Shown: one piece after another, positions 19,991 through 40,205 of the stretch
How the letters are laid out: every line of letters begins with the position of its first letter
How positions within the stretch are numbered: the first letter of the stretch is position 1
Source: Sporomusa malonica
Lineage (GTDB): Bacteria > Bacillota > Negativicutes > Sporomusales > Sporomusaceae
NCBI RefSeq assembly: GCF_900176355.1
Contig: NZ_FWXI01000001.1
Span: 124,001 to 188,000 of the forward strand
Direction of reading: 5' to 3'
Length of the DNA: 64,000 nt
Position numbers and translations under genes: made by a program
Notes under the pieces: generated by a model
Database searches by the model: none
Seen by the model: only the letters and a program-made list of their open reading frames with translations
Told to the model about the DNA's origin: nothing

Positions 19991-20025
19991 CTGAATGAGC
20001 TGGGTTTTGGCTATTTATACTAAAC

Positions 20026-20078
20026 ATTTACAATTATGATTAAAAGTAATATGATTGTAAATAGTAATATTACTATTT
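20026..20078. promoter_or_regulatory. Fur/Zur-type operator region
   Basis: A perfect 20-bp palindrome, AAATAGTAATATTACTATTT, spans 20059-20078, just before the ribosome site of the Fur-family gene. A second inverted pair, ATTTACAAT (20026-20034) and ATTGTAAAT (20054-20062), overlaps it. AT-rich palindromes of this kind are typical metal-regulator boxes. Autoregulation, and control of the divergent fragment, is inferred. Confidence 0.6.
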
Positions 20079-20092
20079 AAGAGGTAACGCAT

Positions 20093-20515
20093 ATGGAAAA
20101 GTGGATTGCTGCCCTTCGTTCACAAGGGTATAAGGTTACGCCGCAACGACGTGTCGTGATTGAGGCATTGAAACAAGGTGACAAGTTTGCTACAGCCCAG
20201 CAAGTGTTAGAAGCGGTGAGGCAAAGATTCCCGGAAATGAGTTTGGACACTGTTTATCGCAATTTGAGCCTCTTGGTTGAACTGGGATTAGTTCATGAGG
20301 TGCGTACGAAAGGGCGGGACGGCAATTTTTTTGAGATTGCTGTAACCGGTCATCACCATCACACTGTGTGTTTACAGTGCGGCAAAGCAGAATGCCTGGA
20401 TTTTTGCCCCATCCATGAGCAGGATTTGGCAAGGGCAGAGGTTGGCGGTTTTAAAATTACTGCTCACTCACTGGAGTTCTATGGATATTGTGCAGATTGT
20501 CGCAAAGTCGGTTGA
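20093..20515 (+). CDS. Fur-family metalloregulator, probably Zur
   Basis: 140 residues, normal Fur length. The N-terminal winged helix is seen in YKVTPQRRVVIEAL and MSLDTVYRNLSLLVELGLV. Metal sites are evident: HHHH near 86, CLQCGKAECLDFC (two CxxC-like pairs) and CADC near the end for structural zinc. Family members repress metal-uptake genes when loaded with metal. The next gene encodes a ZnuA-type zinc-binding lipoprotein 27 bases downstream, so zinc sensing is the best guess; Fur or PerR function cannot be excluded. A palindromic box lies before the start. Confidence 0.8.
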   Translation: MEKWIAALRSQGYKVTPQRRVVIEALKQGDKFATAQQVLEAVRQRFPEMSLDTVYRNLSLLVELGLVHEVRTKGRDGNFFEIAVTGHHHHTVCLQCGKAECLDFCPIHEQDLARAEVGGFKITAHSLEFYGYCADCRKVG

Positions 20516-20542
20516 TTTTTTAGACGTATAAGGAGGTTGTTT

Positions 20543-21529
20543 ATGAATCGAATAGCAAAAATGGGGCTGGTTTTTCTGCTTTGCGCTGCTTTATTGGTAA
20601 CACTGGCAGGCTGCGGCAACAAGACAAAATCCACCCAAGCGGCACCTGATAAGCTCAAGGTTTTCGCAACAGTATATCCTGTTTATGATTTTGCCCGGCA
20701 AGTGGGCGGCGACAAGATTGAGTTAGCTATGTTGATGCCGCCAGGCGCTGAACCACATGATTGGGAACCAACTGCCCAGGATATAGTGAAAATTAAGTCG
20801 GCCAAATTGGTACTCTATCATGGTGCAGGGCTTGAACCAGTAGATAAACTACTGAGTAAAGATGTGTTGGCAACAGTGAAAGCTGTGGAGGTTAGTAAAG
20901 GAATTCCGTTACTTGCCAACCATGAAAATGACGAGGATGAAGACGAAGATAGCCACCATCAGCATGACAAAGAAAAAAAACCAGATCAGCACAAGCATGA
21001 GTCTGAAACAGATACTCATGTCTGGCTAGATCCGGTAAATGCCCAGCAGGAAGTAAAAGCCATTGCCGAAGCATTGAGCGAGGTTGATCCGCCCAATAAA
21101 GACTATTATCAAAAGAATGCTGAACGCTTTATTCAGGAATTAGCCAAACTCGACAGTGACTATCAAACCACCTTGGCTAAAGCAGCACGGCATGATATCA
21201 TCACAAGCCATATCGCCTTCGGTTACCTGGCTAAACGCTATAACCTTGAACAGATTGGCATTATGGGCCTAGCGCCAGATAGTGAACCTACTCCGGATAA
21301 GATGGCTAAGGTAGTTGATTTCTGTCGCACACATCAGGTTAAATACATATTTTTTGAGACATTGGTCAGCCCCAAACTGGCTGATACTATTGCTAAAGAA
21401 ACCGGAGCAGGCCTCTTGGTGCTCAATCCGCTAGAGAATCTGACAGCAGAAGAAATCAAACAAGGAAAAAATTATGTATCAGTTATGCGTGAGAATTTGT
21501 CCAATTTGGATAAGGCGTTACAAAAATAA
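20543..21529 (+). CDS. znuA: ZnuA/TroA-type metal-binding lipoprotein
   Basis: 328 residues, with a lipoprotein signal ending LAGC and an acidic, histidine-rich loop (about 130-165) of the kind found in zinc-specific members. Metal-binding histidines are expected at EPHDWEP, THVWLDP and ITSHIAFGYLAKRY. It would capture Zn2+ outside the cytoplasmic membrane for an ABC importer. ATG 20543 follows AAGGAGG. No znuB or znuC follows; the DNA beyond contains repeats and then an unrelated gene, so the permease and ATPase must be elsewhere. Confidence 0.88.
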   Translation: MNRIAKMGLVFLLCAALLVTLAGCGNKTKSTQAAPDKLKVFATVYPVYDFARQVGGDKIELAMLMPPGAEPHDWEPTAQDIVKIKSAKLVLYHGAGLEPVDKLLSKDVLATVKAVEVSKGIPLLANHENDEDEDEDSHHQHDKEKKPDQHKHESETDTHVWLDPVNAQQEVKAIAEALSEVDPPNKDYYQKNAERFIQELAKLDSDYQTTLAKAARHDIITSHIAFGYLAKRYNLEQIGIMGLAPDSEPTPDKMAKVVDFCRTHQVKYIFFETLVSPKLADTIAKETGAGLLVLNPLENLTAEEIKQGKNYVSVMRENLSNLDKALQK

Positions 21530-21580
21530 TTACACGTCTCATCATTAGGGATCAAGGCATTTACGTCATTTTTGTCCAGA

Positions 21581-21661
21581 AGAAAGTACAACTTTCTTCT
21601 GGACAAGGGCAACATTGGCTTCCGCTGTCGCCAAAGCTCGGCATACGCCGTGTTTTCTTTA
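21581..21661 (+). repeat. Dispersed repeat R1, copy 2
   Basis: Closely matches 4690-4771, including the GAAAGT/ACTTTC hairpin, GGACAAGGGCAACATTGG, TCGCCAAAG and the closing CGGC/GCCG hairpin with TTTT. It may double as the terminator of the zur-znuA operon. Confidence 0.75.
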
Positions 21662-21770
21662 TCAATGGGAAGCATAACTTGCCTGTAGGTAAGGCTATGG
21701 TTCTATTTTGATTGGGTAAGTTATGCGTTCTAGAGATGTGTTATGCTTTAGTCTCAAGCGAGCAGGACAG

Positions 21771-21893
21771 GGGTTTGGAATACTTCGCCTCCACCAATCA
21801 AATCCGGAATGACTTGGAACCCGCGAATTTCGCGGGTTTTTTTTGTATTTTTGAAAGGTTTGAAAGGTTTCGGATGCCTCCACCAAGTAAATT
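21771..21893 (+). repeat. Dispersed repeat R2, copy A
   Basis: Order of parts: GGTTTG, CGCCTCCACCA (21785-21795), CAAATCCGGAATGACTT, a terminator hairpin (AACCCGCGAA/TTCGCGGGTT, 21818-21839, then eight T) and a second CCTCCACCAAGTAAAT (21877-21892). It lies between the znuA end and the large defence-type gene. Confidence 0.75.
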
Positions 21894-22019
21894 ATTTTTA
21901 CTTAAAGTAGCATAAGTGAGAGTTTTTTACAGGATTTTGTCAGATTTGGATAGAAATATTTAGTTTTGAAAACTCAAAAATGAGCCAGATAATCGTCCCT
22001 CGACTCAAAGAAACTGAAC

Positions 22020-22048
22020 TTGAAAAAAATTCATCTGGATTGTAGATA
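22020..22048 (+). promoter_or_regulatory. Possible promoter of the large STAND gene
   Basis: TTGAAA (22020-22025), 17-base spacer, TAGATA (22043-22048), in an AT-rich stretch with no other structure I recognise. Confidence 0.35.
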
Positions 22049-22113
22049 TAAACTTTAGAAGTAATGTTTTTTGTATTAAAAATAGCTGTAATGAAATTAG
22101 GGAGGTGCTTGGT

Positions 22114-25100
22114 ATGCCCAATGAATTAGGTGGTAGAGCGGACAAACGTGGAAATAGGTTTGAATTTAGATGGGTAATATACCAAATACTGAAAGTCTTA
22201 GATGAAAAATTAGATTATATTGTTTTGGAACCCCTTGGCGACGATGAACAGGGTGTTGATATATGGATAGGTAAAAAAAATGGCAGCAGAGAAGGACAGC
22301 AATGTAAAGGGAGAAATGGAAGTAAAGAATATTGGGATTATGGAACTGCTAATGGTAAAGGAATTTTTACTAAATGGAAGTATCAATTGGATAGAGATAA
22401 GTCGAATACTGTTGCCTTAGTATCGCCTTTAGCTTTTACATTGCTAGAGGATTTAATTGAAAGAGCAAAAAATACCAGTAATAATCTTAAAGATTTTTAT
22501 AATAACCAAATTCTAAGTGCGAGCAAAGAATTTATAGATTTCTTTAAACATTTTTGCAAAGTGATGGAGATAAATCCGGAACAAGATTTGGATTTAGCAA
22601 AATGCATTTCTTATTTAAATAGAATAGCTTATCGGCAATTTCCAGATGCGGAATTAAAAGAGCTGATTATATCCAAAATTAGTTATTTATTAGTAGGCAA
22701 TGAGGAAGAAATCTATGAAGCATTTATTGCGTGGATAGTAGATGGAGATGTTTTAGGAAAAACAATTAGCCAGTCCGTTTTGTATGAGTTTTTAAAAGAA
22801 AAAAATATAAAGCTTAAAGAACTTGCCACTGATAAACGTATTATGCCTAGGCTAGAGGAATTGAATCAGGAATATAGAATAGCATTTATTCCGTTAAACA
22901 ATGGACTGATTAATAGAAAAGAATTTTCTGTATGCAGAAAAGCAATCGATTTAGGAGATTCTTTAATAATACATGGGAAGGCTGGAAGAGGAAAAAGTGG
23001 ATGTACAGAAGATATTATAAATTATTGTCAAGAACAAACCATACCGTATTTGGCAATTAAATTAGATAAACGGATTCCGACTGGGACTGCCGAGAAGTGG
23101 GGTAAAGATTTAGAATTACCTGCATCCATAGCTCATTGTATTCACAGTGTTTCTAAAAATGAAAGAGCAGTAATTATTTTGGATCAGTTGGATGCTCTAC
23201 GTTGGACTCAGGCACATTCCAGAGATGCTTTATTGGTATGCGCTCAGATTATTGATCAACTAGAGAGATTGAATTTGGAAAGAAAATATAAGATATCTGT
23301 CGTTTTTGTATGTCGAACCTATGACTTGGAAAACGATAATAATATTAGGTCATTATTCAAAAAAAATGATAAGAAAGAGGAAGTTTTTCAATGGAATAAA
23401 GTTCAGGTTAATGAATTGGATGAGGGAATACTAAAAGAGATTGTTGGAAAGCGTTATGAACAATTATCAAGTAAATTAAAAGAGATACTAAGGATTCCAA
23501 GTAATTTATATATTTGGCAACAATTGGATCCAAGCAAAGAATATGCCGAATGTTCTACCGCAAGCCATTTGGTCTCAGAATGGTGGGGGCAGTTGTCCGG
23601 AAAATGTTTCGAATTTGGATTAAGTGAAGCCGATCTAAATGAGACTAAAGAAAAAATGGTAACATTGTTGGAGAAACTAGGTAGAATATTTATTCCGTTA
23701 AGAATATTAAATGTTAATAAATCAGGCTTAGACTTTTTATCTTCAAATGCTTTCTTAGTAATTCAAGATAATAAAGTGTCCTTTGCTCATCAGTCGATAT
23801 TGGACTGTTTTTTGGCTGAAAAAATGCTTAAGAGATATTATGACGGTGAAGATGTTGTAGATATTATTGGAAGCAAAGAAAAACAAACCCCTGGAAAAAG
23901 ATATCAAGTGCAAATGTTTATGCAAAATTTATCTGAGTTCGATAGCCAGGATTTTATTAATGCAGGCCAAAAGATGTTTGAGGCCAAGCAAATCAGATAT
24001 TTTATTAAATTTGTTTTCCTTGAGGTATTAAATCAGATAGATATTCTAGATGAAAATGTAAAAAATTTCATTATTAGTAACTGTGAAAACGAAACCTATG
24101 GTAGTCATATTATAAATAACGTTATATTCTCCAGGCCTAAATATATTAGATTGTTTAGAAAATATGGTATCTTCGATAAATGGTTTATCGACTCACATAA
24201 AAAAGATATTGTTTTTAACTTACTTATAAGTATGAGTCCGGATTATGAAAGCGAAGATATTTCATTTATTGAAAAGTATGCATTTCATTCACAGGAAGAT
24301 GATAATAAATTTTCAAGATGTTTTTTGCATGATATAAATCAAGATACAGATGAGTTGTTTGAATTGCGAATGAAATTTTATAGCAGTTATCCGCAAATGG
24401 CTAATGTGTATCTTGATTTCAAATCGATGCTCAAAAATTGTGAAATAAGAACAATACGGCTATTGGCATTTTTATTGGAAAATAAAATTAAATGCAAAGA
24501 AAAAAACATTTATAAGTATGAAGAGGAATTTATATTTGAAGACTCTGAAATATTAATTACAAATGGAATGGAGGTTGTTAATTTATTATTGCCATACATT
24601 CCTACGGAAAAAGATGAAAGGCTATCCTTCAGTGATTGGTCTGGAAGATATTTTCATAAAAGAGGTCTTGAAAGGGCTTGTATTCAAATTATTAAAAAAG
24701 CAAATGCAGCGATAATTGCTTTAAAACCAGAAACATTTTTCCAAGAATATAAAGAATTCATGGGGAAAGGCATTGATATATATAATGAAATTATATTAGA
24801 TGGATTATATCGATTGCCAGAGATATATAGTGATGTCGTTATTAATTATTTGTGTAGTGACTTTGATAGCAACATATTCGATCAGACAAGTGGCAATGGT
24901 GATGAATTACTTCTTATAAAGCAGATATTAGAAAAGCATTCCCAATACTGTAGTGAACATATTTTTGCTATGTTAGAAAAAACAGTTTTAAATTATCTAT
25001 CGCCAAAAGCTAAAGATATATACCTACGTAGGATCGATATTAATCGAGAAAAAAACGGCTATACAGTGTATTGGAGTTTTTGGGGTGATTTGCAGAAAGA

Positions 25101-26673
25101 AATTTTGGAGGTCCTTCCCAATAATCGATTGAGCGATTATGCAAAAGATTTGATGCGTGTTTTGAAACGTAAATTCCCTGAAGGGACAACTTTATATAAA
25201 CATGCAGATGGACATTTCGGATGGGTCAGTTCATCCATTGCGGGGAAAAAACTAAATAACAAGAAGTGGTTGGAGATTTTAACTAACACAAAACTTAAGC
25301 ATAAAGGTCACTCCCGTTGGCAAGAGGTTCCAGGAGGCTTTATCGAAAATTCTATTGAACAATTTTCGAGTAGTTTTAGAAATGCCGTTTCTGAAGAGCC
25401 TGAAAGAATGATAAAACTGGTTCTTATACATAAAGAAGAAATTTTAGATGTATATGTCGATTCCTTATTTGGTGGAGTCGCACATAGTAAGGTTTTAGAT
25501 AATGTACCGATAGAATTGTTAGAAACAATGATTTTGAGCTATCCGTATGATTATACTTCATACCGGGCGAATTATATTTGCTCAATGATTGAGAGCAGGA
25601 AGAACGTGGAATGGTCAAAGAAGATATTGGATATTCTTAAGGATATTGCGATTAACCATAAAAATCCGGAAATAAGTAAACCAAATGTAACGAATAATGA
25701 AGATAAAGAAATGCGTAGCTTTGATATGATGCACAGCAATGCTTTAAATTGCGTAAGAGGTAAGGCGGCTCTAGCAATAGCTCGGCTATTATGGAACAAT
25801 GATTCTTTGTTTAAGCAGTTTAAAGATACAATTGAAAAATTGACATTGGATGAAAACCCAGCAGTAAAATTGGCAAGTTTATTTACGTTATGGCCTTCGT
25901 ATAACATTGAACGAGAATGGGCATCTGATAAAATTATAAATCTATATGAACAAGATTATAGGCTGGCAGGCTTTCATGACACGAAAAATATGCTCTTTTT
26001 TCTTTATCCGAAATATCGTGAACGTGTATTAAAAATTATCAAAAACTGCTATGAATCTGAAGATAAAGACCTAATTAAAATGGGTGCATATTGTCTATCG
26101 GAAATGTTTATTCTGAAAAACGAATTTGCCGATATAATAAATGATGTTGATACAATGAGTGAAACACAAGCAGAAGCAGTTCTCCACATGGCTATTATCT
26201 ATTTCAATAAAGATGAATTTAATTCATTAGCAAAAAATATGATATGCAAATTTAAGAAAAGTATACTAGATTTAGAAATGCCGATTTCGAGATTGTTTTA
26301 TGATAATCGTATTGATTTAGAGAGAGATAAGGATTTTTTAATCGAATTAATGAATTCAGGTTTAAGTCGCAGAACAGTGCATGCCTTTGTACATTATCTT
26401 GAAGAAGAATCAAAGTCTGTGGTTGATTACAAAGATATTATATTATCAATGAGTTATCATTTAGTTGAAAATGGATGCGGCAAAAACGAGGGTATTTGGG
26501 GAATAGAAGATGAAATTTCTAAGTTGATAATTGGATTGTATGACGAGACTTCTGAGTCATCACTACCTGAAATGAAAAGTATTGCTAATGAATGCCTTGA
26601 TATATGGGATTTGATGTTTGAAAGGCAAATTGGGCCAATTAGATTCTTAAGTCAAAAACTGATGGAAAGGTGA
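22114..26673 (+). CDS. Nuclease-STAND NTPase-helical repeat protein, candidate anti-phage defence gene
   Basis: 1519 residues. Residues 1-110 look like a PD-(D/E)xK-type nuclease: Asp49 in QGVDIW, then Gln63-Cys-Lys65 in GQQCKGRNG. Around 270-480 is a P-loop NTPase with Walker A GKAGRGKSG (288-296) and Walker B VIILDQLD (Asp357), followed by a CRTYD sensor-like segment: the STAND/NACHT layout. Residues 500-1519 are helix-rich with no conserved catalytic motif, as in sensor tails of Avs-type defence proteins. ATG 22114 follows GGGAGG by 8 bases. The gene is clearly richer in A+T than its neighbours and flanked by R2 repeats, suggesting transfer. Defence is inferred from architecture, not shown; no phage genes or partner proteins are adjacent. 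Confidence 0.7.
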   Translation: MPNELGGRADKRGNRFEFRWVIYQILKVLDEKLDYIVLEPLGDDEQGVDIWIGKKNGSREGQQCKGRNGSKEYWDYGTANGKGIFTKWKYQLDRDKSNTVALVSPLAFTLLEDLIERAKNTSNNLKDFYNNQILSASKEFIDFFKHFCKVMEINPEQDLDLAKCISYLNRIAYRQFPDAELKELIISKISYLLVGNEEEIYEAFIAWIVDGDVLGKTISQSVLYEFLKEKNIKLKELATDKRIMPRLEELNQEYRIAFIPLNNGLINRKEFSVCRKAIDLGDSLIIHGKAGRGKSGCTEDIINYCQEQTIPYLAIKLDKRIPTGTAEKWGKDLELPASIAHCIHSVSKNERAVIILDQLDALRWTQAHSRDALLVCAQIIDQLERLNLERKYKISVVFVCRTYDLENDNNIRSLFKKNDKKEEVFQWNKVQVNELDEGILKEIVGKRYEQLSSKLKEILRIPSNLYIWQQLDPSKEYAECSTASHLVSEWWGQLSGKCFEFGLSEADLNETKEKMVTLLEKLGRIFIPLRILNVNKSGLDFLSSNAFLVIQDNKVSFAHQSILDCFLAEKMLKRYYDGEDVVDIIGSKEKQTPGKRYQVQMFMQNLSEFDSQDFINAGQKMFEAKQIRYFIKFVFLEVLNQIDILDENVKNFIISNCENETYGSHIINNVIFSRPKYIRLFRKYGIFDKWFIDSHKKDIVFNLLISMSPDYESEDISFIEKYAFHSQEDDNKFSRCFLHDINQDTDELFELRMKFYSSYPQMANVYLDFKSMLKNCEIRTIRLLAFLLENKIKCKEKNIYKYEEEFIFEDSEILITNGMEVVNLLLPYIPTEKDERLSFSDWSGRYFHKRGLERACIQIIKKANAAIIALKPETFFQEYKEFMGKGIDIYNEIILDGLYRLPEIYSDVVINYLCSDFDSNIFDQTSGNGDELLLIKQILEKHSQYCSEHIFAMLEKTVLNYLSPKAKDIYLRRIDINREKNGYTVYWSFWGDLQKEILEVLPNNRLSDYAKDLMRVLKRKFPEGTTLYKHADGHFGWVSSSIAGKKLNNKKWLEILTNTKLKHKGHSRWQEVPGGFIENSIEQFSSSFRNAVSEEPERMIKLVLIHKEEILDVYVDSLFGGVAHSKVLDNVPIELLETMILSYPYDYTSYRANYICSMIESRKNVEWSKKILDILKDIAINHKNPEISKPNVTNNEDKEMRSFDMMHSNALNCVRGKAALAIARLLWNNDSLFKQFKDTIEKLTLDENPAVKLASLFTLWPSYNIEREWASDKIINLYEQDYRLAGFHDTKNMLFFLYPKYRERVLKIIKNCYESEDKDLIKMGAYCLSEMFILKNEFADIINDVDTMSETQAEAVLHMAIIYFNKDEFNSLAKNMICKFKKSILDLEMPISRLFYDNRIDLERDKDFLIELMNSGLSRRTVHAFVHYLEEESKSVVDYKDIILSMSYHLVENGCGKNEGIWGIEDEISKLIIGLYDETSESSLPEMKSIANECLDIWDLMFERQIGPIRFLSQKLMER

Positions 26674-26817
26674 AAGGTATTTTTCAGTAGAATGGCAATA
26701 TATTGCTCTGGTGTTTTTATAGTAACGTTGTTCACACTATCTTCTGAGAAAACATACTGACTTATAAATAGAATAGATACAGTGGACAGTTCTTCTATAT
26801 CATTAACTCTAAAAGGG

Positions 26818-26938
26818 GGGATTTGCAAGGTCCCGGATCGCCTCCACCATGCAAATCCGGAATGACTGAGAGCCCGCGAATCTCGCAGGCTCTTGTTGTT
26901 TGTGTAGACGGCTGGTGGAGGTAGCCTCCACCAGCTGT
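26818..26938 (+). repeat. Dispersed repeat R2, copy B
   Basis: GGATTTGCA (26819-26827) and TGCAAATCC (26849-26857) pair around CGGATCGCCTCCACCA. Next comes a terminator stem (AGCCCGCGAA with TCTCGCAGGCT) and a strong hairpin, AGCTGGTGGAGG-like against CCTCCACCAGCT, at about 26911-26936. Together with copy A it brackets the STAND gene. Confidence 0.75.
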
Positions 26939-26951
26939 GATGCTTATACAA

Positions 26952-28694
26952 TTATCCGTGAATCGGTGTTCCGTGATTCTTTATTTTGGCCTGCATTTCG
27001 GCGCTCAATTTGATAACAAGCTCGGCGTTGTATGCGCCGCTGGGAGTATAAGGCGGCATGCCATTGAATATTTCAGCAGTCGCGACAGCGTATGAGCGCG
27101 ATATTGCGGCGGGCGAGCCGGGCGTCACAGCGGGATCGACATTAGCGGCCAAAATCGAAAGCGTGTCATCACTGTTGCGGACAATATCAAAAATACGAAA
27201 CTGCTGGGGGAAATCTCTCAGCGAGGCTGTTTCCACTTCCCAGAAACCGAGTTCAGGACGGCCGGCATCCGGCGAAGGCAGGGCTGTCACCGTATTGTAG
27301 TGGCGATGGCCCGCCACCCACAGGATGAGATTCGGATAGGTGTGCAGCTTGGCAATCAAGTCAGCTTCGGAGGGGGATGAGGCAGTGTCCCACATCGGCC
27401 CTATCCCGATGGGAACATGGGCGGCAACGATCATTAGCTTGCCATCGGCCTGGCCTTTATCGAGTTCTTTTACCAGCCAAGCGTAACGCTCCTCATCAAG
27501 GGCACCGCTGGCGCCGTTGGCGCGAGTCCCGAAGGCGGTATCGTCGTTTTCGGTGTCGTCAAGGACGATTACCTTGATGGGAAGGTCTGCTTTCGGCTCA
27601 AAAGTATAGTTGGCCAAGCCTGTTAGGGCGTTGTCCCGCGAAAATCCATGGCCTACAGGATTTGAGGCAGTGTTGAAAAATTCAGCTATCCAGTCATTCT
27701 TGTCAATATGGCGTCGGTCAGGGTTGGCGTTTACTTTGGGGGGAGTGGCGAAATCAACCAGCGGCCCTGCCTTGATGACCTCTCCATAGGGGGTCGAACC
27801 GTCAATAACGCCCATATAGTACCCGCGGGTATCGAGGATTTTATCCGAAGTTATCTGTTCATCGATATTTAGGAGGGTTTCGCCGATCAGGGTCTGTTTC
27901 AGGTAATCATTAGGGGCGAAAACCCCCGACCAGAAATGATCGTGATTGCCGCGCACCTGGTACCAGGGAATCGACTTATCAAGCCCGGCTGCCTTGTACT
28001 GGCGCAGATAATCGGTAGTAGCGACAGATTCAGGGTCGGAATTGGGGTTGATGGTTTGGCCGTCCAAAATATCGATATACCAACGCAGCTCATTGAACTG
28101 AGAGTTATTAATGGCATCACCTAAGAAGAGACCGAAATCGATGGCCGCTTCCTTATGCAGCGCGTTGACCGTCTGAACGGCGGCATCCAGAACATGCGTT
28201 GTATAAAGAATGACCGGTGAATACGCCGACGACATGCCAGGCTGGCCTTTAAGGCCAAAGTAAATGGTCTGGGCCGGCGACTGCATATCGGTAATGTGAA
28301 TATCGGTCATGGTAAAAAACCGCAGAAGGGTGGCTGCGGTTTTGGCAGATGCACCGGTATAGCCTGGCGGCATGAGATCAAGTCTTTTTTGGAAAGAAAG
28401 GCCGCTGCCTGTCTGCCAAGCGCCGTAGCCATACTTCGAATATTGGGAAACCGCGTTGGGAAGAAGTTTGGGCGAGGTCGCCGGCACCGAAACCGGAATA
28501 ACGGTATGCTCCAGGGTGGTGAGAACCTTGGAAGCTATTGGATAGCTTGCTCTGGCTGATTGATTGTCTAACAAAGACTTATGCGCAAGCAACTGTTCAG
28601 CCCAGGCCGGCCGGACGGGAAGGGCGCTGAGCGCCGCCAGCGCAAGTCCGGTCTTCTGTAAAAATTTACGCCGTGAGAACTTAGAGGTTTTCAT
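26952..28694 (-). CDS. Tat-exported metallophosphoesterase (TIGR03768-like)
   Basis: 580 residues with a twin-arginine signal (SRRKFLQKTGLALAALSALP), so it is probably exported folded. The calcineurin-like metal motifs are in order: TDIHITD, GLFLGDAINN, VRGNHDHFWSG, AAHVPIG and AGHRHYN. The length and long inserts resemble the TIGR03768 (RPA4764) family rather than small phosphodiesterases. The substrate is unknown, probably an organic phosphate or nucleotide. The GC content is visibly higher than in the preceding STAND gene. Repeat R2 copy B lies directly after its stop. Confidence 0.82.
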   Translation of the reverse strand: MKTSKFSRRKFLQKTGLALAALSALPVRPAWAEQLLAHKSLLDNQSARASYPIASKVLTTLEHTVIPVSVPATSPKLLPNAVSQYSKYGYGAWQTGSGLSFQKRLDLMPPGYTGASAKTAATLLRFFTMTDIHITDMQSPAQTIYFGLKGQPGMSSAYSPVILYTTHVLDAAVQTVNALHKEAAIDFGLFLGDAINNSQFNELRWYIDILDGQTINPNSDPESVATTDYLRQYKAAGLDKSIPWYQVRGNHDHFWSGVFAPNDYLKQTLIGETLLNIDEQITSDKILDTRGYYMGVIDGSTPYGEVIKAGPLVDFATPPKVNANPDRRHIDKNDWIAEFFNTASNPVGHGFSRDNALTGLANYTFEPKADLPIKVIVLDDTENDDTAFGTRANGASGALDEERYAWLVKELDKGQADGKLMIVAAHVPIGIGPMWDTASSPSEADLIAKLHTYPNLILWVAGHRHYNTVTALPSPDAGRPELGFWEVETASLRDFPQQFRIFDIVRNSDDTLSILAANVDPAVTPGSPAAISRSYAVATAEIFNGMPPYTPSGAYNAELVIKLSAEMQAKIKNHGTPIHG

Positions 28695-28906
28695 TAAATG
28701 TCCTCCTCAAAAATGTAATATTCCTGTATTTGAGACAGATTGATGTTGCAAGCTTCTGGACCTATTCTAATTAATAGACAGTAAATTTTCTTCATGATAC
28801 TAGAAGCGACAGCTTTTTATCAACTGAGCAAGGACTAACCGCAGGTTTTTGAGGAGATTTGACGAAAATAAAAAACCATGCGTCTATTAACACATGGTAT
28901 GTAGGG

Positions 28907-29638
28907 CTACTTATTATGCAAAAGATTGTAAAAAGATGCCCGGGTCGCATTTTTATAGGTTCGGCTGATGGGGATGACCGTGCCGTCACGAAGAACGAAA
29001 CTATCGCTGGCGTATTCCTCGACATACAGGAAATTCACGACAAAACTTTTGTGTGGCCGTAGCCACATTTTTGACGGATGACGCTGCGTGAATTCATCCA
29101 GTCTGGTATAAACAACCAATCTTTCATTTGGCGCTGCTAAAACAACCTCCACCTGGTTTCTGCGACTCTCCAGATAAAGGATGTCATCAATCGGGATTCG
29201 CCGCTTTACGCCGCCGCTGGTGACAGCGATGGTTTCTTTGGACAGGCCCTGCACTTCATCAATCGTTTTTTGCAAACAGGCGGTCACTTTCTCTGCGCCC
29301 AGCGGTTTTACCAGATAGCCCGAGGCATTTACCTCGTACCCTTCGTAGACATACTCCGTGGAACTGGTTAAAAACACGATTTTGACCAGCTTGTCCCACT
29401 GGCGGATTAGGCGCGCGCACGTCATGCCGTCCATATCGCCCATGATGATGTCCATAAATACCATGTCAAACCGCAGTTTTTTGCTCTCGATGGCCGAGAT
29501 AAATTTTTCCGCGCTGTCGTAGGCGAAAACTGTCCCGTCGATTCGCTGACTTCGTAAAAAAGTCTCTATTATAGTACATATTGCCTTTCTGTCGGTATTG
29601 CTGTCTTCACAAACCGCGATTATTAGCATAGTCCTCAC
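28907..29638 (-). CDS. LytTR-family response regulator
   Basis: 243 residues: an N-terminal receiver (phospho-accepting Asp in MVFMDIIMGDMDG, Lys in YLVKPLG) and a C-terminal LytTR DNA-binding domain (ILYLESRRNQVEVV, FVVNFLYVEEY, IPISRTYK). This is the AgrA/VirR/LytR arrangement. GTG 29638 is one start; ATG 29629 is three codons later with GGTGAGG just before it. It is divergent from the histidine kinase at 29745 with about 106 bases between, so both probably share a control region. Confidence 0.88.
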   Translation of the reverse strand: MRTMLIIAVCEDSNTDRKAICTIIETFLRSQRIDGTVFAYDSAEKFISAIESKKLRFDMVFMDIIMGDMDGMTCARLIRQWDKLVKIVFLTSSTEYVYEGYEVNASGYLVKPLGAEKVTACLQKTIDEVQGLSKETIAVTSGGVKRRIPIDDILYLESRRNQVEVVLAAPNERLVVYTRLDEFTQRHPSKMWLRPHKSFVVNFLYVEEYASDSFVLRDGTVIPISRTYKNATRASFYNLLHNK

Positions 29639-29744
29639 CGTGCCCTTAATAATAATTCAAACTAGCCGCGACAAGCGGCAGAGCAAAAACAGCGAACGAT
29701 ATTAAGCGAATAACAACTGATACTTCTTAGTTTGGAGAGGTTTT

Positions 29745-31034
29745 ATGCAAGAATTTACGACAATTTTACCGCCTGTATTCACCTTTATCTTCCTGGTGAC
29801 GAATATTTTGCTTACTTATATTTTCTTAACACCAAGGGGCCGATGGGGGGGCCACGTTCTGGCCTTTGCTGTTGCCTGGGTCGCCGAACACTTGCTACGC
29901 AGTTTGCTGCAAACGGTAATTCTCGATCATTTTTTACTCAGCTATATAGTGGGCTTATTGTATATCATCCCGATTGCGCTGATTTTTAAAGAAACACTCC
30001 AGGCTAAGCTTTTTGTTTTCTTTTTGATTTTTTCCATGTCGCAGTTTTTTATCCTTATCTTCTTGTTCTTTGAACAATTGGTGTTTAACCAAATAGTATT
30101 CACTTTCATGTTGACGGGCGCTTTGCTTGAAATGGCATCGTTACCGTTAATAAGAAGATATGTCAAGCCGCTTGTCAGAGATATTATCGATATCATAAGC
30201 CAGCAAAATACCAGTTTCACTTTTTTCCCCGTTTTGGCGTTCATACTAATGTCGTTTTATGGTGTGCGCGCAAACTCATTGGTAGCTAATTTTGTACCCT
30301 TGATATTAAGCACCCTATTGCTTGTCTATGCCTATTACCTGATAGCCAGATCCATCGACCAGACCAAGCGGCACCAAGCGCTGGAAAGACATTTGGCACT
30401 GCAGCGCGATCACTATCAAAATCTATACAAAAGTATTGCCGATACCAAGGCAATTCGCCATGATTTGCGCCATCATCTGGCGACGCTCACAGAATTTCTG
30501 GGGAAAAACAATCCTTCGGCTGCCCAGGAATATATAAACCAATTAAGCCGCATCTACGACGACAGTTTCCTTCCCAGCGTGTGCAGCAACAAATCCGCCG
30601 ATGCGCTCATTGCTCATTATCTAAAACTGGCTAAGCGGCTGAATATTGCCACCGCCACAGAGCTGAACCTGCCTGACGGCCTGGGTATCGATGAATTGGA
30701 TCTATGCGTTATTCTTGGCAATTGTCTGGAAAACGCCATCGAAGCCTGTAGTAAAATAGGCGGCGAGGAGTCGGGCTGTATCGACATAAAGAGCGAAATA
30801 ACCAAAGGGCATTTATTGATTACAATAACCAATTCTTTCAATGGCCTTGCTTTGCCCCGGAATGGGGATAGGTTGGTTTCTACAAAAAAAGGCGCGGACC
30901 ATGGAATGGGCCTTTCCAGCGTGAAAGCATTAGCGGCCAAGTATGCCGGCCACTTTGACAGTTCTTTCGACCAACGGGTTTTCAAAGTGTCGGTGTCTCT
31001 GAAGTTGCCGAAAAATCTTGCGGCTTCCGGGTAA
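29745..31034 (+). CDS. AgrC-like GHKL sensor histidine kinase
   Basis: 429 residues. The first 205 hold about six membrane segments without a large outside loop, as in peptide-pheromone receptors. Then comes a short coiled linker, the H-box IRHDLRHHL near residue 245, and a GHKL ATPase (CVILGNCLENAIEACSKIG; DHGMGLSSVKALA). It should phosphorylate the divergently encoded LytTR regulator. A GGAGAGG site precedes the ATG. An intrinsic terminator follows at 31048-31088. The signal is unknown; AgrC homologs sense peptides, but no agrB is present here. Confidence 0.87.
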   Translation: MQEFTTILPPVFTFIFLVTNILLTYIFLTPRGRWGGHVLAFAVAWVAEHLLRSLLQTVILDHFLLSYIVGLLYIIPIALIFKETLQAKLFVFFLIFSMSQFFILIFLFFEQLVFNQIVFTFMLTGALLEMASLPLIRRYVKPLVRDIIDIISQQNTSFTFFPVLAFILMSFYGVRANSLVANFVPLILSTLLLVYAYYLIARSIDQTKRHQALERHLALQRDHYQNLYKSIADTKAIRHDLRHHLATLTEFLGKNNPSAAQEYINQLSRIYDDSFLPSVCSNKSADALIAHYLKLAKRLNIATATELNLPDGLGIDELDLCVILGNCLENAIEACSKIGGEESGCIDIKSEITKGHLLITITNSFNGLALPRNGDRLVSTKKGADHGMGLSSVKALAAKYAGHFDSSFDQRVFKVSVSLKLPKNLAASG

Positions 31035-31047
31035 CGCAGCTCATACA

Positions 31048-31088
31048 AAAGAAGAACCATGTATGATGATGCATAGTTCTTCTTTTTC
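31048..31088 (+). terminator. Intrinsic terminator after the histidine kinase gene
   Basis: AAAGAAGAAC (31048-31057) pairs with GTTCTTCTTT (31076-31085); ATG and CAT extend the stem past a mismatch, and T follows. Confidence 0.7.
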
Positions 31089-31248
31089 GTCAATTATCCT
31101 CAAAAACCTGCGAGTTCTACGAGGGTTATTGATAAAAATATGTCGTAATAAGTATGCTGATATAAAGACGGGCATCAGCCAAAACATCCCGATGGAGGCG
31201 GACGAAGACGACGATTTCGATTCTGGGATCATCGGTTTTTTTCCATGA
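31063..31248 (+). CDS. Possible small cationic-acidic peptide
   Basis: A 61-codon frame: a cationic amphipathic stretch (SIILKNLRVLRGLLIKICRN) and an acidic tail (MEADEDDDFDSGIIGFFP). Such a polarity suits a secreted or pheromone precursor, and it follows a kinase of the AgrC type. Against this, the start overlaps the kinase terminator, there is no good ribosome site, and AgrB is absent. A start at an internal codon is possible. Confidence 0.25.
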   Translation: MMMHSSSFSSIILKNLRVLRGLLIKICRNKYADIKTGISQNIPMEADEDDDFDSGIIGFFP

Positions 31249-31328
31249 AGGGCGGTGTATAGAGCCTCTGTAGAGTGAGCTAATTTACCGAGGCCAACAG
31301 GCAATAACGAATTATGGAGGAATATCGA

Positions 31329-31448
31329 ATGGATTTTTCCCGAACAGCAATTTTAAAGCTTTTCTTGTCACTGGTTCTGGTATTGAGCGCTTTTTAGGGG
31401 GCGATAGCGGAGGACGACGTGCCACCGGCAGGTAAAAGCAGGATTTAA
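31329..31448 (+). pseudogene. Signal-peptide frame interrupted by TAG
   Basis: GGAGG (31315-31319) precedes ATG 31329. The frame encodes a typical export signal (FLSLVLVLSAF), hits TAG at 31395-31397, then continues in frame as GAIAEDDVPPAGKSRI to TAA 31446. AIA-EDD would be a normal cleavage site if the stop were read through. A nonsense-mutated remnant of a small secreted protein is the simplest reading. Confidence 0.5.
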
Positions 31449-31470
31449 TAAATAGTAGAGGAGAATGTAC

Positions 31471-32475
31471 ATGCGTATTAAGAAAATTATCCTGGTAGTT
31501 ATTGCTCTCGTTTTTAGTTTCACCTTTGCGGCACAGGCAAATGAAAAAGGGGCTACCGATTACTCAAAGCCTGAACGTTGGCTGGCTTTACCTGCTGCTG
31601 TTGAAAAAGAAGTGGATGTATTTTTTCTCTACCCGACCGCCTGGCAAAAGGTCGATAAAAATGAGCCGAACATCTGCGAGATTGACAACAAGTCAATGGT
31701 GCAAGGTGCAAAGGCAGCACTCGGCAGACAAGCCACCGTGTTTGAAACCGTCGGTAATATTTACGCACCTTATTACCGGCAGGCAGATGGCGCATATACC
31801 TTAGCTTTGACTGTCAAAGAGCAAGCTGCCCTCCTTGGCAGCCTGCCGAAATCAGATGTGTTTGCCGCGTTTGACTATTATATCGAACACTATAATCAGG
31901 GTCGTCCGTTTATCTTAGCTTCGCATTCCCAAGGCTCGGACCTGATGCTGATTATTTTGGCGGAATATATGAAAGAACATCCCGCTGTGTATCAAAGAAT
32001 GATCGCGGCCTATGTGATCGGTTATTCGGTCACCGAGGACTACCTGGCAAACAATCCGCACCTGAAATTTGCGCAAGGCCCTGACGACACCGGAGTCATC
32101 ATCTCCTATAACACTGAAGCGCCTGTGATTAAGGGGAAAAATCCGGTCACGTCGCCTGGCGGCATTGCGATAAACCCTATAACCTGGACCACAGAAGAGA
32201 CCTTGGCAACAGCAGAGCAAAGTCTCGGTTCTAGGCTGTTAGATAAGGCCGGAAACTGGGTGCTGGTAAAAAATTATGCCGATGCCCGTGTCGACAAAGC
32301 CAGAGGGGTTATCATATGCAGCACCGCTGATGTCAAAACATTTTCGCCGGGAAATGCTGTATTCCCCCAAGGGGTTTACCATAGCCTGGATTATCCGTTT
32401 TATTACTATAATCTCAGGGAAAATGCCGCGAAACGGACGGCAAAATACCTGGCCCTGCAGGCGGCTATCCAATAG
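31471..32475 (+). CDS. Secreted DUF3089-type alpha/beta hydrolase
   Basis: 334 residues: a signal peptide (IILVVIALVFSFTFAAQA), then VDVFFLYPTAW and YAPYYRQAD, typical of DUF3089, and the nucleophile elbow ASHSQGS near residue 150. The family has a lipase-like fold; the substrate is unknown. ATG 31471 is preferred over ATG 31465 because AGAGGAG lies 7 bases before it. The product is likely outside the cytoplasmic membrane. Confidence 0.82.
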   Translation: MRIKKIILVVIALVFSFTFAAQANEKGATDYSKPERWLALPAAVEKEVDVFFLYPTAWQKVDKNEPNICEIDNKSMVQGAKAALGRQATVFETVGNIYAPYYRQADGAYTLALTVKEQAALLGSLPKSDVFAAFDYYIEHYNQGRPFILASHSQGSDLMLIILAEYMKEHPAVYQRMIAAYVIGYSVTEDYLANNPHLKFAQGPDDTGVIISYNTEAPVIKGKNPVTSPGGIAINPITWTTEETLATAEQSLGSRLLDKAGNWVLVKNYADARVDKARGVIICSTADVKTFSPGNAVFPQGVYHSLDYPFYYYNLRENAAKRTAKYLALQAAIQ

Positions 32476-32518
32476 CTGCGAGGGTTGATACAGCGATTGA
32501 TAGTACGGTTGTTAAAGT

Positions 32519-32640
32519 GGGATTTGCAAGGTCGCGGATCGCCTCCACCATGCAAATCCGGAAAACTTGAGAACCCGCGAAATTCGCGGGTTCTTTGCTG
32601 TGAATTTTTGGATGGTTATGGGTGGCTCCACCAAGTAAAT
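32519..32640 (+). repeat. Dispersed repeat R2, copy C
   Basis: GGGATTTGCA pairs with TGCAAATCC around GGTCGCGGATCGCCTCCACCA. The terminator GAACCCGCGAA/TTCGCGGGTTC follows, then GGTGGCTCCACCAAGTAAAT. From here to 32803 I see only a 30-codon open end (ADFIKIKVNTDVKNLKLD) that may be a gene tail, and no gene. Confidence 0.75.
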
Positions 32641-32803
32641 AAATCAAGCACAGCCGACTTTATTAAGATAAAGGTAAATACCGATGTTAAAAACTTAAAG
32701 CTGGATAAAAATGGATATGTAGCATGGAAGATATAATATATAGTATTATTCGATGCGGCTTATGGATATTATCGGGAGCTGACCTTGCGGGAAATAACCC
32801 TCC

Positions 32804-34789
32804 TTAAAAATGGAACTTTGCTACTATACTTTGCAAATCTTGTGCCATTTGTGCAAGACTATTACTGGCTGCAGCGATTTCTTCCATAGATGCAGACTGT
32901 TCTTCCGTAACTGCCGAAACGTTCTGTGTTTGACTAGCCGTATCATTGCTGATACCTTCTATTTCTTGTATCGCATTAATAATTTCTTGACTGCCGGTGG
33001 TTATTTTTTGAATAGCTGCTGTAATACCAGCTACTTGATGAGTAACTCCATTTACCGACGCAATAATTTCCGCGAAGGCCTGCCCGGCAGTATTGACCAC
33101 CTCTGCTCCTATCTTAACTTCATTAGTGCCTTCATTCATCGCCTTAACAGCTTCATCCGTATCGCCTTGAATTTCACTAATAAGCATCGCAATTTGTTTG
33201 GCTGCTGCTTCCGATTGTTCTGCTAATTTGCGGACTTCATCCGCTACTACTGCAAAACCGCGTCCTTGTTCACCCGCTCTAGCCGCTTCAATGGCTGCAT
33301 TTAATGCTAAAAGATTGGTCTGTCCGGCAATTCCGGCAATAGTATCTACAATCTGCCCAATTTCTTTTGATCGTTCCCCCAATTTCACAACTACCTGCGC
33401 TGAACGAGTCACTTTTTGCTCAATATTATTCATTTGACTGACTGCGTTCTCGATCACTCTGCCGCCAGCATTAGCAGCATTGGCAGCAATATTCGCTGTC
33501 GATTCCACATTATTGACAGTAGTTGCCGTCTGCTTGATATCAACTGAAATTCGGTCAATGGCCAATACCGTTTTATTAACTGCAGCCGTCTGTTTTTCCG
33601 TGCCTGCTGCCACTTCGGTAATGGACTCGGCTACCTGACAAGCCCCCTGAGCCGACTGCTCTGCTCCGCTCTTAAGTTGTTCTGCCGAAGCCGCTACTTG
33701 CTCAGAAGAATAAGCGACCTTCCTCATTACGTCACTAAGTTTTTCTGCCATGATGTTAATGGCCCTACCCAGTTGTCCAATCTCATCAGAGGAATTATCC
33801 ACTACTGTTGATTTTCTAAGATCGCCCTCAGCCAACTGTGTTATCTGCCGCAACATGACGATCAAACGATTGGCAATCTTGCGGGAAAAGTACCAGGTAA
33901 GTATTACTACAACCAAAATCACTATTCCAGTCATCCCTAGAACCTTATACCGCACGGCAATGATGGGTGCATACAATTCTTTTTCCGACACAGTAGCCGT
34001 TACTATCCAATTTGTCAGGCCAACAATGGCGCTAGCACCAAACATATCCATCCCTGCAGCATTTTTAAAGCTCATGACTTGCTTTTGTCCACCCATCGTT
34101 GCTTTTATTATGCCAACTTCGGAAACATCTTTTCGCTCGGAAACATACGTTTTGTCAGGATGCGCAACAACTGTCGCCTTGCCGCTTGAATTAGCAGTGA
34201 CAGCAGCGTATCCAGTTTCGCCCAGTTTTACTTGTTCCCGCAACTTTTCCAAAGCATCCAGAGTAATTACCTGTGCTACCACACCGGACACACCTGCGCC
34301 ATCTTTTATGGGCGTTGAAATAAAAACTACTGGTTTTCCTGAACTGCGTGAAACCAGTACATCACTTATAACTTGTTTTCCAGATTGCACAGCATCTTTA
34401 AAATATGGCCGATCACTTACCATAGCGCCAATCATATTGGTATTGGGGAAACTGCTGATTACCTTTCCGTACTTATCTGTGACGGAAATGGCCTCATACG
34501 AAGCGGTATCAGTTTCCAGCGCCGCCTTTACAACTGCCGATAATACTGTTGTGTCACCACGAACCGCATACTCATTTTTAGCAATGAGTTGGCCTGTCTT
34601 AGCTCTTTCCTGAAACATATATTCAATATCTTGTGCCAACCCTTGCGCCTTTTCTTGTACTTGCTGATTTACGTCTGCTTTCAGATTTGTTTCCATCGTG
34701 TTTAGTAAGATTAATCCTGTCATCCCCATTGTACCTAAAGTTAGTAATAAAATAATAATTACCAATTTCGCAAAAAAATTTAACTGCAT
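32804..34789 (-). CDS. Methyl-accepting chemotaxis protein with dCache sensor
   Basis: 661 residues: membrane segments at about 7-29 and 280-302 enclosing a double-Cache extracellular domain ([36 protein letters not shown]), then HAMP, then the cytoplasmic signalling domain with the tip [20 protein letters not shown]. Cache domains often bind amino or organic acids, but the ligand here is unknown. The stop is followed by about 65 bases and then the R2 repeat. The long plus-strand frames inside it are shadows. Confidence 0.92.
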
Positions 34790-35162
34790 ACTATCGCCTC
34801 CCCAATAGTTTCCAAACTGAAACCAGATTACCTATTATATTACATACCAAATAAAAACCATTACTCACTTGTAAATTACAATAATAAATGAGTAAATAGT
34901 CTTTCTTGATATCAATTATATTGTTAATATTTGTCGTGCGAAGTTATTTCTCCTGCTAAAATTCTTAATATACTGACATTTTTATATTCACCCAAAGTAC
35001 CGAAGGCAAGTAATATACGGAAAAATAAAATCAGATATAAAAAAGAGCCCCTTTAGGGGCTGACTGAAGAAGTTATGCGGTTGGTGGACTTTTTCAGCGA
35101 GTCTTGAGACTCGGCGAGTATCATGCCCTTGTAGGGCGTAATCAAGCACCTGTTGGTCCTGA
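34790..35162 (-). other. Intergenic region with LysR terminator and consecutive hairpins
   Basis: Read on the minus strand, AGCCCC-TAAA-GGGGCT (35046-35061) followed by a T run terminates the LysR gene. Before it come the perfect hairpin CGAGTCT-TG-AGACTCG (35098-35113) and GCCC/GGGC (35125-35137). The rest, 34800-34990, is AT-rich and probably carries the chemoreceptor promoter. No gene is seen. Confidence 0.55.
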
Positions 35163-36083
35163 CTATGTGGGTTCGGTTTTGATGATACCTTGCCTATAAT
35201 GTTCGGGGAAGGCTTCCAACTCATTTAAAAAAAGAGAGATGCTTGGGTTGGTATTAGTATGATTCCATGCGATTGATACATAAATGGATGCGTCCTCTTC
35301 GTCAACATCAAGAGTTTTTAATGAGGAACTGGCGTATCCCAACGGGATATGGCGAGGCAGTAGGGAGATGCCAAAACCGGCTTCTACCATCATTAATACG
35401 GTCAGAATACCGGAAACCGGATCCACACTGGGGCGAAACCCACGGTTTGAACAAACACGCATTAGGTTGTTATAAGCCCTGGGTGCATCTTTAGGATGAA
35501 ATATAAAAGTTTCTTTGGATAGTTCAGCACGAGTTGTGTTGGTCCTACGGGCCCAGGGATGACTGGATGGAACTACAAGACAAAGCTTGTAATCGTATAT
35601 CTTTTTCCATGAAATACCGGGAATCTTAGTTGTCTCCCATAATTGTATAAATCCAATGTCAATAGTGGCACGTTCTAATGCTTCATCAATGGCGCCGTTG
35701 CTAAGCTGTTGGCAGGATAACTCGATAGAGGGGTATTTTTGTCGAAATTGGTATATCAATTTTGGTAGAAAATTCTTTTCGGCAAAGCCTAAATAACCGA
35801 TTTTCAGTCTTCCTGATATTCCGGAAGCTGCCTGACGGGTTATTTGGATCGCTTCCTCAGTCTTGGCAATAATGGCCTTGGCTTCACGTAATAAGGCTTC
35901 TCCTGCCGCAGTCAGAGATGTGGAATATCTATTGCGGTTAAACAGAATTACCCCTAAATCACTTTCTAACTCGGAAATCTGCTGGCTGAGCGCCTGCGGA
36001 CTTATATAGACGTGTCTTGCTGCTGCGGTAAAATTAAGATGTTCCGCGGCAGCGACGAAATATCGAAGTTGCCGTATGTCCAT
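35163..36083 (-). CDS. LysR-family transcriptional regulator
   Basis: 306 residues: an N-terminal winged helix (MDIRQLRYFVAAAEHLNFTAAARHVYISPQ, residues 1-30; continues to about 60), then a periplasmic-binding-like effector domain (SGRLKIGYLGF, VVPSSHPWA, GFGISLLPRHIP). It is divergent from the UroD-type methyltransferase gene with a 213-base gap, the usual arrangement for a LysR activator and its target. The effector is unknown. Confidence 0.9.
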   Translation of the reverse strand: MDIRQLRYFVAAAEHLNFTAAARHVYISPQALSQQISELESDLGVILFNRNRYSTSLTAAGEALLREAKAIIAKTEEAIQITRQAASGISGRLKIGYLGFAEKNFLPKLIYQFRQKYPSIELSCQQLSNGAIDEALERATIDIGFIQLWETTKIPGISWKKIYDYKLCLVVPSSHPWARRTNTTRAELSKETFIFHPKDAPRAYNNLMRVCSNRGFRPSVDPVSGILTVLMMVEAGFGISLLPRHIPLGYASSSLKTLDVDEEDASIYVSIAWNHTNTNPSISLFLNELEAFPEHYRQGIIKTEPT

Positions 36084-36171
36084 AGGTACCTCCCCAGATC
36101 AGATTCTTATGATAGTATTATACATCCAGACTTTTCAGAAAACAATTAAACCTAATACAAGTATTACTTGG

Positions 36172-36218
36172 GTAGCCTAAACCAAAAACTGTTTCCCACT
36201 AACGCTATAACGGGCTAC
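36172..36218. promoter_or_regulatory. Possible LysR binding region
   Basis: GTAGCC (36172-36177) and GGCTAC (36213-36218) are inverted copies inside the LysR/UroD intergenic region. Spacing is wide and no clear T-N11-A box was chosen. Confidence 0.25.
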
Positions 36219-36296
36219 AATAAAAATAAATTGCAGGAAAATTACCGCAATTAAATCGGAGAAGGTATTTTAATAATCAATAATGGAGGTTTTTTT

Positions 36297-37409
36297 ATGG
36301 ACAGCAGTAATGAGTTATATTTAAAACATTTTAATCGCATCACAAATGCTATTGAATTGGGTACGCCCGACCGTGTACCAGTGATACTGGCTGCAGATTC
36401 TTTTCACGCCCGCCATATGGGGGTTTCGTTGGCTGATTATATTAATGATTTAGAAGCTGCCAGCCGTACCAACATAGCATCTATGGCCCAGCTCGGAGAG
36501 GTTGATGGGGTTGAATATCTAGCTCCCATTATCTGGGGTCTGGGTATGGCGTCCATGTCAAAATTGAAACTGCCCGGAAGAGAACTGCCTATTGATGCAC
36601 AGTGGCAAATTGACGAAATTACACCGATGAAGATCGAAGACTATGATGTAATTATTGACAAGGGTTTTAACGCCTGGGCACAGCCGATTTTTCAAAGTGA
36701 GTTGAAACAGTCTTGGGATGATTTCCTCTGGTATCGGTCTGCCGACTGGCCAAAAATAAAAGAGAACTATAAAAATGCCGGTATTGTTCCGGTCAGTCCG
36801 GCAACTACCGCACCGCCGTTTGACCGTCTTTCCAATGCACGTGGTATGGCAAATTTAGTCAAGGATATGTACCGCATTCCCGATAAAGTAGAAGCTGTAA
36901 TCAAGATAATGACCGAAGAGATGAAAGAAACAATCAAGACCACAATAGCTCAGACAAAACCGTTTGCCTATTTTATTGGTGCCACCCGCTCTGCACCGGA
37001 ATATATGTCGAAGAAGATGTGGGAGCGCTTTTGCTTCCCAAACATTAAAGAAATCGTCGAAACAGTTGTAAATGCGGGTTCCTACCCTCTATTACACTGG
37101 GATAACAACTGGGATCGTTCGTTAGAGTATCTAAAAGAACTACCTAAGGGTAAATGTATTTTGGCTACTGATAGCAATACTGATTTGTTCGAAGCAAAGG
37201 AAGTTCTCGGCGACCATATGTGTCTTATGGGTGATTTACCTGCAGCCATACTCACATTAGGAACTCCCGAGGAAGTGTATGACTATAGCTGTAAGTTGGT
37301 CAATAACCTTGGTCCTAAAGGCTTTATTCTTGCTGTTGGTTGCTGTGTTCCCCTCAACGCGAAAGTCGAGAATATGAAGGCAATGATTTCAGCAGCTACA
37401 GGGCGTTAA
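36297..37409 (+). CDS. UroD-family (corrinoid-type) methyltransferase
   Basis: 370 residues of the uroporphyrinogen-decarboxylase fold. Sequence traits (HWDNNWDRSLEYLKELPKGKC near 260-280; GCCVPLNAKVENMKAM at the end) fit methyltransferases such as MtaA/MtbA-like proteins that move methyl groups via a corrinoid protein, rather than heme enzymes. A zinc site formed by His and Cys of these segments is expected. No corrinoid protein gene is adjacent, so the partner is elsewhere. GGAGG precedes the ATG. The gene stands alone under a divergent LysR regulator; the methyl donor is unknown. Confidence 0.78.
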   Translation: MDSSNELYLKHFNRITNAIELGTPDRVPVILAADSFHARHMGVSLADYINDLEAASRTNIASMAQLGEVDGVEYLAPIIWGLGMASMSKLKLPGRELPIDAQWQIDEITPMKIEDYDVIIDKGFNAWAQPIFQSELKQSWDDFLWYRSADWPKIKENYKNAGIVPVSPATTAPPFDRLSNARGMANLVKDMYRIPDKVEAVIKIMTEEMKETIKTTIAQTKPFAYFIGATRSAPEYMSKKMWERFCFPNIKEIVETVVNAGSYPLLHWDNNWDRSLEYLKELPKGKCILATDSNTDLFEAKEVLGDHMCLMGDLPAAILTLGTPEEVYDYSCKLVNNLGPKGFILAVGCCVPLNAKVENMKAMISAATGR

Positions 37410-37443
37410 TATCAATTACTATGGCCGGAACTCCTGGGGACAA

Positions 37444-38736: not shown

Positions 38737-38753
38737 GAAATACACGAATACTT

Positions 38754-40191: not shown

Positions 40192-40205
40192 AACACTTAT
40201 ATTTT

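Follow-up and report, generated by a model that had tools for sequence, protein, structure and literature searches.

Avs proteins have a three-part layout with an N-terminal effector, which in Avs1-4 is a nuclease, and Avs1-4 kill through that nuclease (PMC12931631). The bNACHT proteins, such as bNACHT25, are bacterial relatives of NLRs that are built on a NACHT domain and act against phage (PMC12169576). Nucleases of the HerA-DUF4297, Cap4, LmuA and HamA group are partners or domains of the HerA, CBASS, Lamassu and Hachiman systems.

A gene of Sporomusa malonica, in a 64-kb stretch of DNA that was analysed as a whole (the window), encodes a protein of 1519 residues, P0001. Like Avs3 and Avs4 (PDB 8dgc and 8dgf), P0001 is predicted to join an N-terminal PD-(D/E)xK nuclease, a STAND ATPase, and a long helical sensor. 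Its residues 7-240 have a predicted fold in common with the HerA-DUF4297, Cap4, LmuA and HamA nucleases, but here the nuclease is fused to a NACHT ATPase. What would set it apart from the bNACHT proteins is the predicted DUF4297-like nuclease together with a 900-residue solenoid.

Domain architecture of P0001

The gene and its parts are as follows.

22114 to 26673, plus strand: coding sequence of P0001 (1519 aa); predicted nuclease, NACHT/STAND ATPase and HEAT/ARM-like tail; start kept in relatives
22100 to 22107, plus strand: ribosome binding site GGGAGGTG, 6 nt 5' of ATG 22114 (direct reading)
22114 to 22821, plus strand: effector module, residues 1-236, predicted PD-(D/E)xK fold of DUF4297/Cap4 type (AlphaFold2 model, fold comparison)
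22258 to 22308, plus strand: nuclease motif D49 / Q63 / K65 (conservation in 14 of 14 relatives)
22822 to 23913, plus strand: residues 237-600, predicted NACHT/STAND ATPase including a winged-helix part (fold comparison, Foldseek)
22975 to 23001, plus strand: Walker A GKAGRGKSG, residues 288-296 (sequence, conservation)
23182 to 23193, plus strand: Walker B acids D357 and D360 in ILDQLD (invariant in relatives)
23788 to 23790, plus strand: H559 in SFAHQSILD (invariant in 14 relatives)
23914 to 26670, plus strand: putative sensor tail, all-helical HEAT/ARM-like solenoid, residues 601-1519 (AlphaFold2 model)

Reading and translation give an uninterrupted ORF from ATG 22114 to the stop codon at 26671-26673, the intact 1519-residue protein that an earlier note on this DNA had described; the interval singled out there, 21771-26938, holds the gene and is wider than it. 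An alternative in-frame GTG at 22105 is overlapped by the Shine-Dalgarno sequence, and GGAGG precedes the start codon in relatives too; ATG 22114 is the better start. The gene is AT-rich against its surroundings, as the earlier note had it: 31.9% GC (27% at third positions) versus 44.5% in the rest of the window. Estimates of dN/dS are 0.15 against the copy in Sporomusa sp. KB1 and, for two copies further removed, 0.13 and 0.12; taken separately against KB1, the front, the ATPase, and the tail give 0.13-0.16, indicating that each of them is under purifying selection. A chance ORF is excluded by the composition and length of the gene and by its conservation.

Conservation was assessed in 14 full-length relatives, down to 18% identity, aligned along their entire length, and AlphaFold2 models were built on the alignment of relatives. 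The model of residues 1-600 is confident (pLDDT 85.9, pTM 0.80). Its front runs helix 15-29, strands 35-39, 48-53 and 59-64, helices 76-94, and strand 99-104; this helix-strand-strand-strand-helix-strand order identifies a PD-(D/E)xK core, with D49 (codon 22258-22260) in the second strand and Q63 (22300-22302) in the third, followed by K65 (22306-22308). Column 49 is D in 11 and E in three of the 14 relatives, whereas E17, E39, Q63, and K65 are invariant. Residues 7-240 match HerA-DUF4297 (9c1m_G) with Z 13.6 and rmsd 3.0 over 166 residues; further fold matches are Cap4 (7yib, 6wam), Hachiman (8zue) and LmuA (9nxx), and Z is 13-14 across the HerA-DUF4297, Cap4, LmuA, and HamA group. No protein of the set passed the Pfam Cap4_nuclease cut-off, the sole match being one relative (L060) at 15.7 bits versus the 26.2 needed. 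The features of a DUF4297/Cap4-type core, a PD-(D/E)xK fold with an acidic residue and QxK, are nevertheless all present in the model. These predictions support a PD-(D/E)xK DNase of DUF4297/Cap4 type at the front of P0001, where the earlier note had suspected a PD-(D/E)xK-like domain from the same three residues.

The STAND/NACHT-like ATPase that was also proposed there, from the Walker A at 288-296 and Asp357, likewise stands. Eight residues are invariant in the 14 relatives: G291, G293, K294, S295, D357, D360, R401, and H559. The last, by its place in the sequence, probably corresponds to the winged-helix histidine of NLRs (F-x-H motif). In fold comparison, residues 239-600 match NLRP9 (Z 21.4) and NLRC4 (Z 21.3), and the NACHT fold including the winged-helix part is matched with Z 20-21 over 313-333 residues of NLRP9, NLRC4, and NLRP3. 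Curated families are less telling. P0001 matches only AAA in Pfam (0.005, below cut-off); its relatives match NACHT, nSTAND3, and AAA_16 below cut-off and, in two cases, AAA just above it; and neither P0001 nor any relative passes the curated NACHT cut-off. Searches of Pfam, NCBIfam, and PDB with the single P0001 sequence returned no curated family and no PDB match, so that only profiles and folds are informative. The fold comparison supports a predicted NACHT/NLR-type STAND ATPase with intact Walker motifs.

The remaining residues, about 1000 of helical tail by the first account, are modelled as an all-helical solenoid (residues 500-1519: pLDDT 79.2, pTM 0.55). Among the fold matches listed are HEAT/ARM solenoids of the importin-13, PP2A-A, and importin-alpha type, and Avs is absent from that list; relatives of P0001 have HEAT matches in Pfam. 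Such solenoid matches of a modelled tail are generic and give no clue to the ligand.

Relation to described systems

Two elements of the Avs layout are predicted in P0001: a nuclease effector at the N-terminus and, in the centre, a STAND ATPase that has Walker A and B. The Avs-type layout proposed earlier is borne out in that the model of residues 1-600 has Avs3 (8dgc, E 1.7e-11) and Avs4 (8dgf, E 3.4e-10) as its best Foldseek matches. It does not extend to sequence profiles: the Avs profiles of PADLOC-DB 2023 do not match P0001 even at E 1, and no Avs is among the PADLOC families matched by the 14 relatives at E 0.01. The profile searches that the earlier note recommended thus yielded weak matches of relatives to NACHT and Cap4_nuclease, but none to Avs. 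Whole-chain TM against Avs3 and Avs4 is low (0.28-0.32), and the P0001 ATPase has a higher Z to vertebrate NACHT domains than to Avs. By sequence profile, P0001 falls outside Avs1-5, though it appears Avs-like in layout.

Searched against the PDB, the family profile matches entries 9n00, 9n01 and 9yix, an 'AAA family ATPase' of 1523 aa, with E 6.4e-30 over nuclease and NACHT. Length is similar, the D and a QCK align, and there is a faint tail match (i-E 1.4, not significant alone). Sequence searches turned up no other convincing relative of known structure, and the match suggests that the general architecture has already been solved in a distant relative. Among the papers searched by text, none names the 9n00 entries or PDC-M54, and none deals with the P0001 family.

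The PADLOC candidate PDC-M54A (PDLC04702) is matched by 14 of 14 relatives (best E 1.6e-20) and by P0001 (2.7e-13, over the ATPase). The profile is of similar length (1621) and has its ATPase in a similar place. However, the nuclease is unmatched and the match consists of the ATPase plus one faint tail piece; no match spans the whole profile, the best stretch being positions 302-602 of 1621, and in 249 Bacillota genomes only ATPase-region matches to PDC-M54A were found. The match is a loose one, since 9n00 and a Segatella NACHT protein also match this profile. P0001 as a whole-length PDC-M54A was rejected, the profile being covered over the ATPase only.

Two relatives, from Sporosarcina (L017) and Planococcus (L020), share about 72-75% identity with P0001 from residue ~240 to the C-terminus. 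Over the first ~165-175 residues the two share 69% identity and show no relationship to the nuclease (20-30%, poor alignment). The effector boundary was placed at about residue 236 from this swap point. The sequences fit a natural effector swap, as would be expected if a STAND sensor were modular and its output exchangeable. The replacing domain (L017:7533-8060, L020:7473-7967) is about 165 residues long and helical-looking, its first stretch moderately hydrophobic. It has no Pfam family above cut-off, and the hydrophobicity of its first helix peaks at only 1.6, so a membrane role for it is a guess.

A long STAND protein (L057:6479-10639) has another front domain, DUF4062-like by eye, and matches the family over the ATPase only.

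Distribution and proposed function

The P0001 gene is present in two of nine Sporomusa genomes and, across the phylum, in seven of 398 genomes sampled (two of these seven being partial matches); with so patchy a spread it is not a core gene of the genus. Identity to P0001 is 86% for a Desulfoscipio copy, 81% for the only sister-species copy (Sporomusa sp. KB1), and 69% for a Paenibacillus copy. Judged by these sequences, the gene has moved horizontally, the Desulfoscipio copy being closer than that of the sister species. Relatives also occur in Sporosarcina and Planococcus, and distant full-length relatives lie on Planctomycete and rhizobial plasmids. Most Bacillota relatives are AT-rich versus their own flanks; the Planctomycete relative has 65% GC, suggesting that low GC is a mark of the donor pool and not of the family. 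A search of phage records gave no match; a search of IMG/VR gave two loci, of which one was refound with A3 and none on a rescan with P0001.

The KB1 copy lies at another site and delimits what was transferred.

22038 to 26673, plus strand: stretch common to the window and the KB1 copy (83.6% over 4644 columns)

No DNA is shared with the KB1 locus beyond this stretch, which points to the gene plus ~76 bp upstream as the transferred unit, and to a gene that moves alone. In Desulfoscipio a probable KilA-N-like gene (by eye; L022:3972-4667) ends just 5' of the P0001 relative; its 122-aa C-terminal part has no Pfam family. A 20-aa remnant of its C-terminus (L014:7810-7869) precedes the KB1 copy, and what the window (22018-22120) has in common is upstream DNA only. 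The ancestral locus may thus have had two genes. Some relatives are broken: by a frameshift (L022:4754-9170), an in-frame stop (L055:431-4903, in genome G425), or truncation (L021:8001-11765).

Several relatives have defence or mobile-element genes nearby. One adjoins Wadjet JetA and JetB (L053); one lies a single gene away from a type II-A retron RT and NDT (L054); one is near FRG (PDC-S15) and a ThsA-like SIR2 protein (L023). A serine recombinase lies immediately 5' of another (L059), and an integrase adjoins L060. In the window, the neighbours are a metallophosphatase, a two-component system, DUF3089, and a chemotaxis receptor, none of them defence genes. A 45-nt inverted repeat there, 84% complementary (28840-28884 and 31068-31112), flanks a LytTR response regulator and a GHKL kinase.

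Together, the nuclease, NACHT, and solenoid parts, in a lone moved gene often found in defence islands, suggest that P0001 is a single-protein NLR-like antiphage sensor, with a probability of about three in four. It is of the Avs/bNACHT kind and matches none of the named Avs types. For the single-gene defence system proposed in the earlier note, then, lone-gene transfer, patchy spread, defence-island neighbours, and the effector swap all speak; the defence activity itself we infer. Neither of the two outcomes named there as refuting the proposal came about, a nuclease fold being predicted and the gene not being core. By analogy, P0001 would most likely respond to a virus by killing the cell or arresting it. 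The steps beyond domain assignment are modelled on Avs and NLR proteins. The resting protein would be inactive; during infection the solenoid tail would bind a conserved phage product; the NACHT domain would open in an ATP-dependent manner, leading to oligomers; the clustered nuclease domains would cut DNA, of phage and host alike; and phage replication would be stopped through death or arrest of the infected cell. That two relatives differ in the N-terminal domain while retaining ATPase and tail fits a switch with interchangeable output.

How firmly should phage be taken as the trigger, and DNA cleavage as the output? The same machine might be directed against plasmids or further kinds of mobile DNA, or act on internal stress as a programmed-death switch. 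Relatives on plasmids and beside integrases and recombinases make competition between elements plausible, and the tail offers no ligand clue; nevertheless, this reading is unlikely, given that three relatives have defence systems as neighbours, most of them acting against phages (Wadjet acts against plasmids), and that Avs3 and Avs4, the nearest folds whose trigger is known, recognise the terminase and portal of phages. Some STAND ATPases are transcription regulators, and the motif here reads QxK where a classical one would read (D/E)xK; the front could in principle only bind DNA or another protein, leaving the NACHT protein a regulator. Such a pseudo-nuclease is quite improbable: E17, E39, D/E49, Q63, and K65 are all conserved down to 18% identity, the fold matches are nucleases, and no DNA-binding regulatory domain was found. 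Still harder to credit is a degraded or neutral passenger gene. The broken relatives (L022, L055, L021) are what such a gene would lead one to expect, but the copy in the window has no interruption in its 1519 codons and the dN/dS values, 0.15 against KB1 and 0.12-0.13 against the two others, argue for function.

The antiphage sensor may, more tentatively, belong to a new Avs-like type, in which NACHT and a HEAT/ARM solenoid sense a conserved viral product and the DNase is exchanged for a helical, possibly membrane-seeking effector, with the sensor unaltered. If this is true, one trigger would be coupled to two different killing modes. Closely related forms that have or lack the nuclease (~72-75% identity over ATPase and tail) constitute a natural experiment on whether the trigger is recognised independently of the effector. 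The P0001 family would add a widespread, unnamed branch, mostly from Bacillota, to bacterial NLR-like immunity.

R2 repeats and the variable region

The P0001 gene lies between two copies of a dispersed repeat, R2, in a region that differs between Sporomusa genomes.

21785 to 21846, plus strand: R2 copy A, terminator-type dispersed repeat outside the system (hairpin + T run)
26838 to 26899, plus strand: R2 copy B, as copy A (repeat comparison)
21534 to 38871, no strand assigned: variable region (comparison with Sporomusa G006)

The earlier note had taken the R2 copies to bound a cassette, and a mobile cassette with R2 repeats acting as recombination sites would account for two direct copies flanking an AT-rich gene. 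P0001 is indeed the sole gene between copies A and B, though the window holds four R2 copies; more occur elsewhere in the genome, and R2 is present in five of nine Sporomusa genomes. With its hairpin and T run, R2 resembles a terminator; the two copies are merely 84% identical; no recombinase lies between them; and KB1 has the gene, its homology including neither R2 copy. The cassette is therefore highly implausible, and R2 as an attachment site was rejected on the hairpin and T run, the dispersed copies, and the absence from the KB1 shared stretch. Nor did the proposed search for empty sites recover a precise R2-to-R2 junction. In G006, synteny holds for the flanks (20012-21533 and 38872-40717), with ~3.9 kb of other genes between them in place of 21534-38871; G006 is thus without the whole 17.3-kb stretch. 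Because the difference extends over 17.3 kb, only a variable region can be claimed, not a precise insertion.

The 64-kb window contains no tRNA. A second dispersed repeat, of ~95 bp, occurs at 4676-4772 and 21569-21662, and in Sporomusa G006 (L050:14128-14224); the copy near P0001 sits between a zinc-binding-protein gene and R2 copy A. At 51085-51545, GTGCG and group II intron domains (Rfam RF02001, RF01998) lie only a few bases beyond another R2 copy. A terminator is the insertion target expected of group IIC introns, and this one is probably a group IIC-type intron inserted after the terminator.
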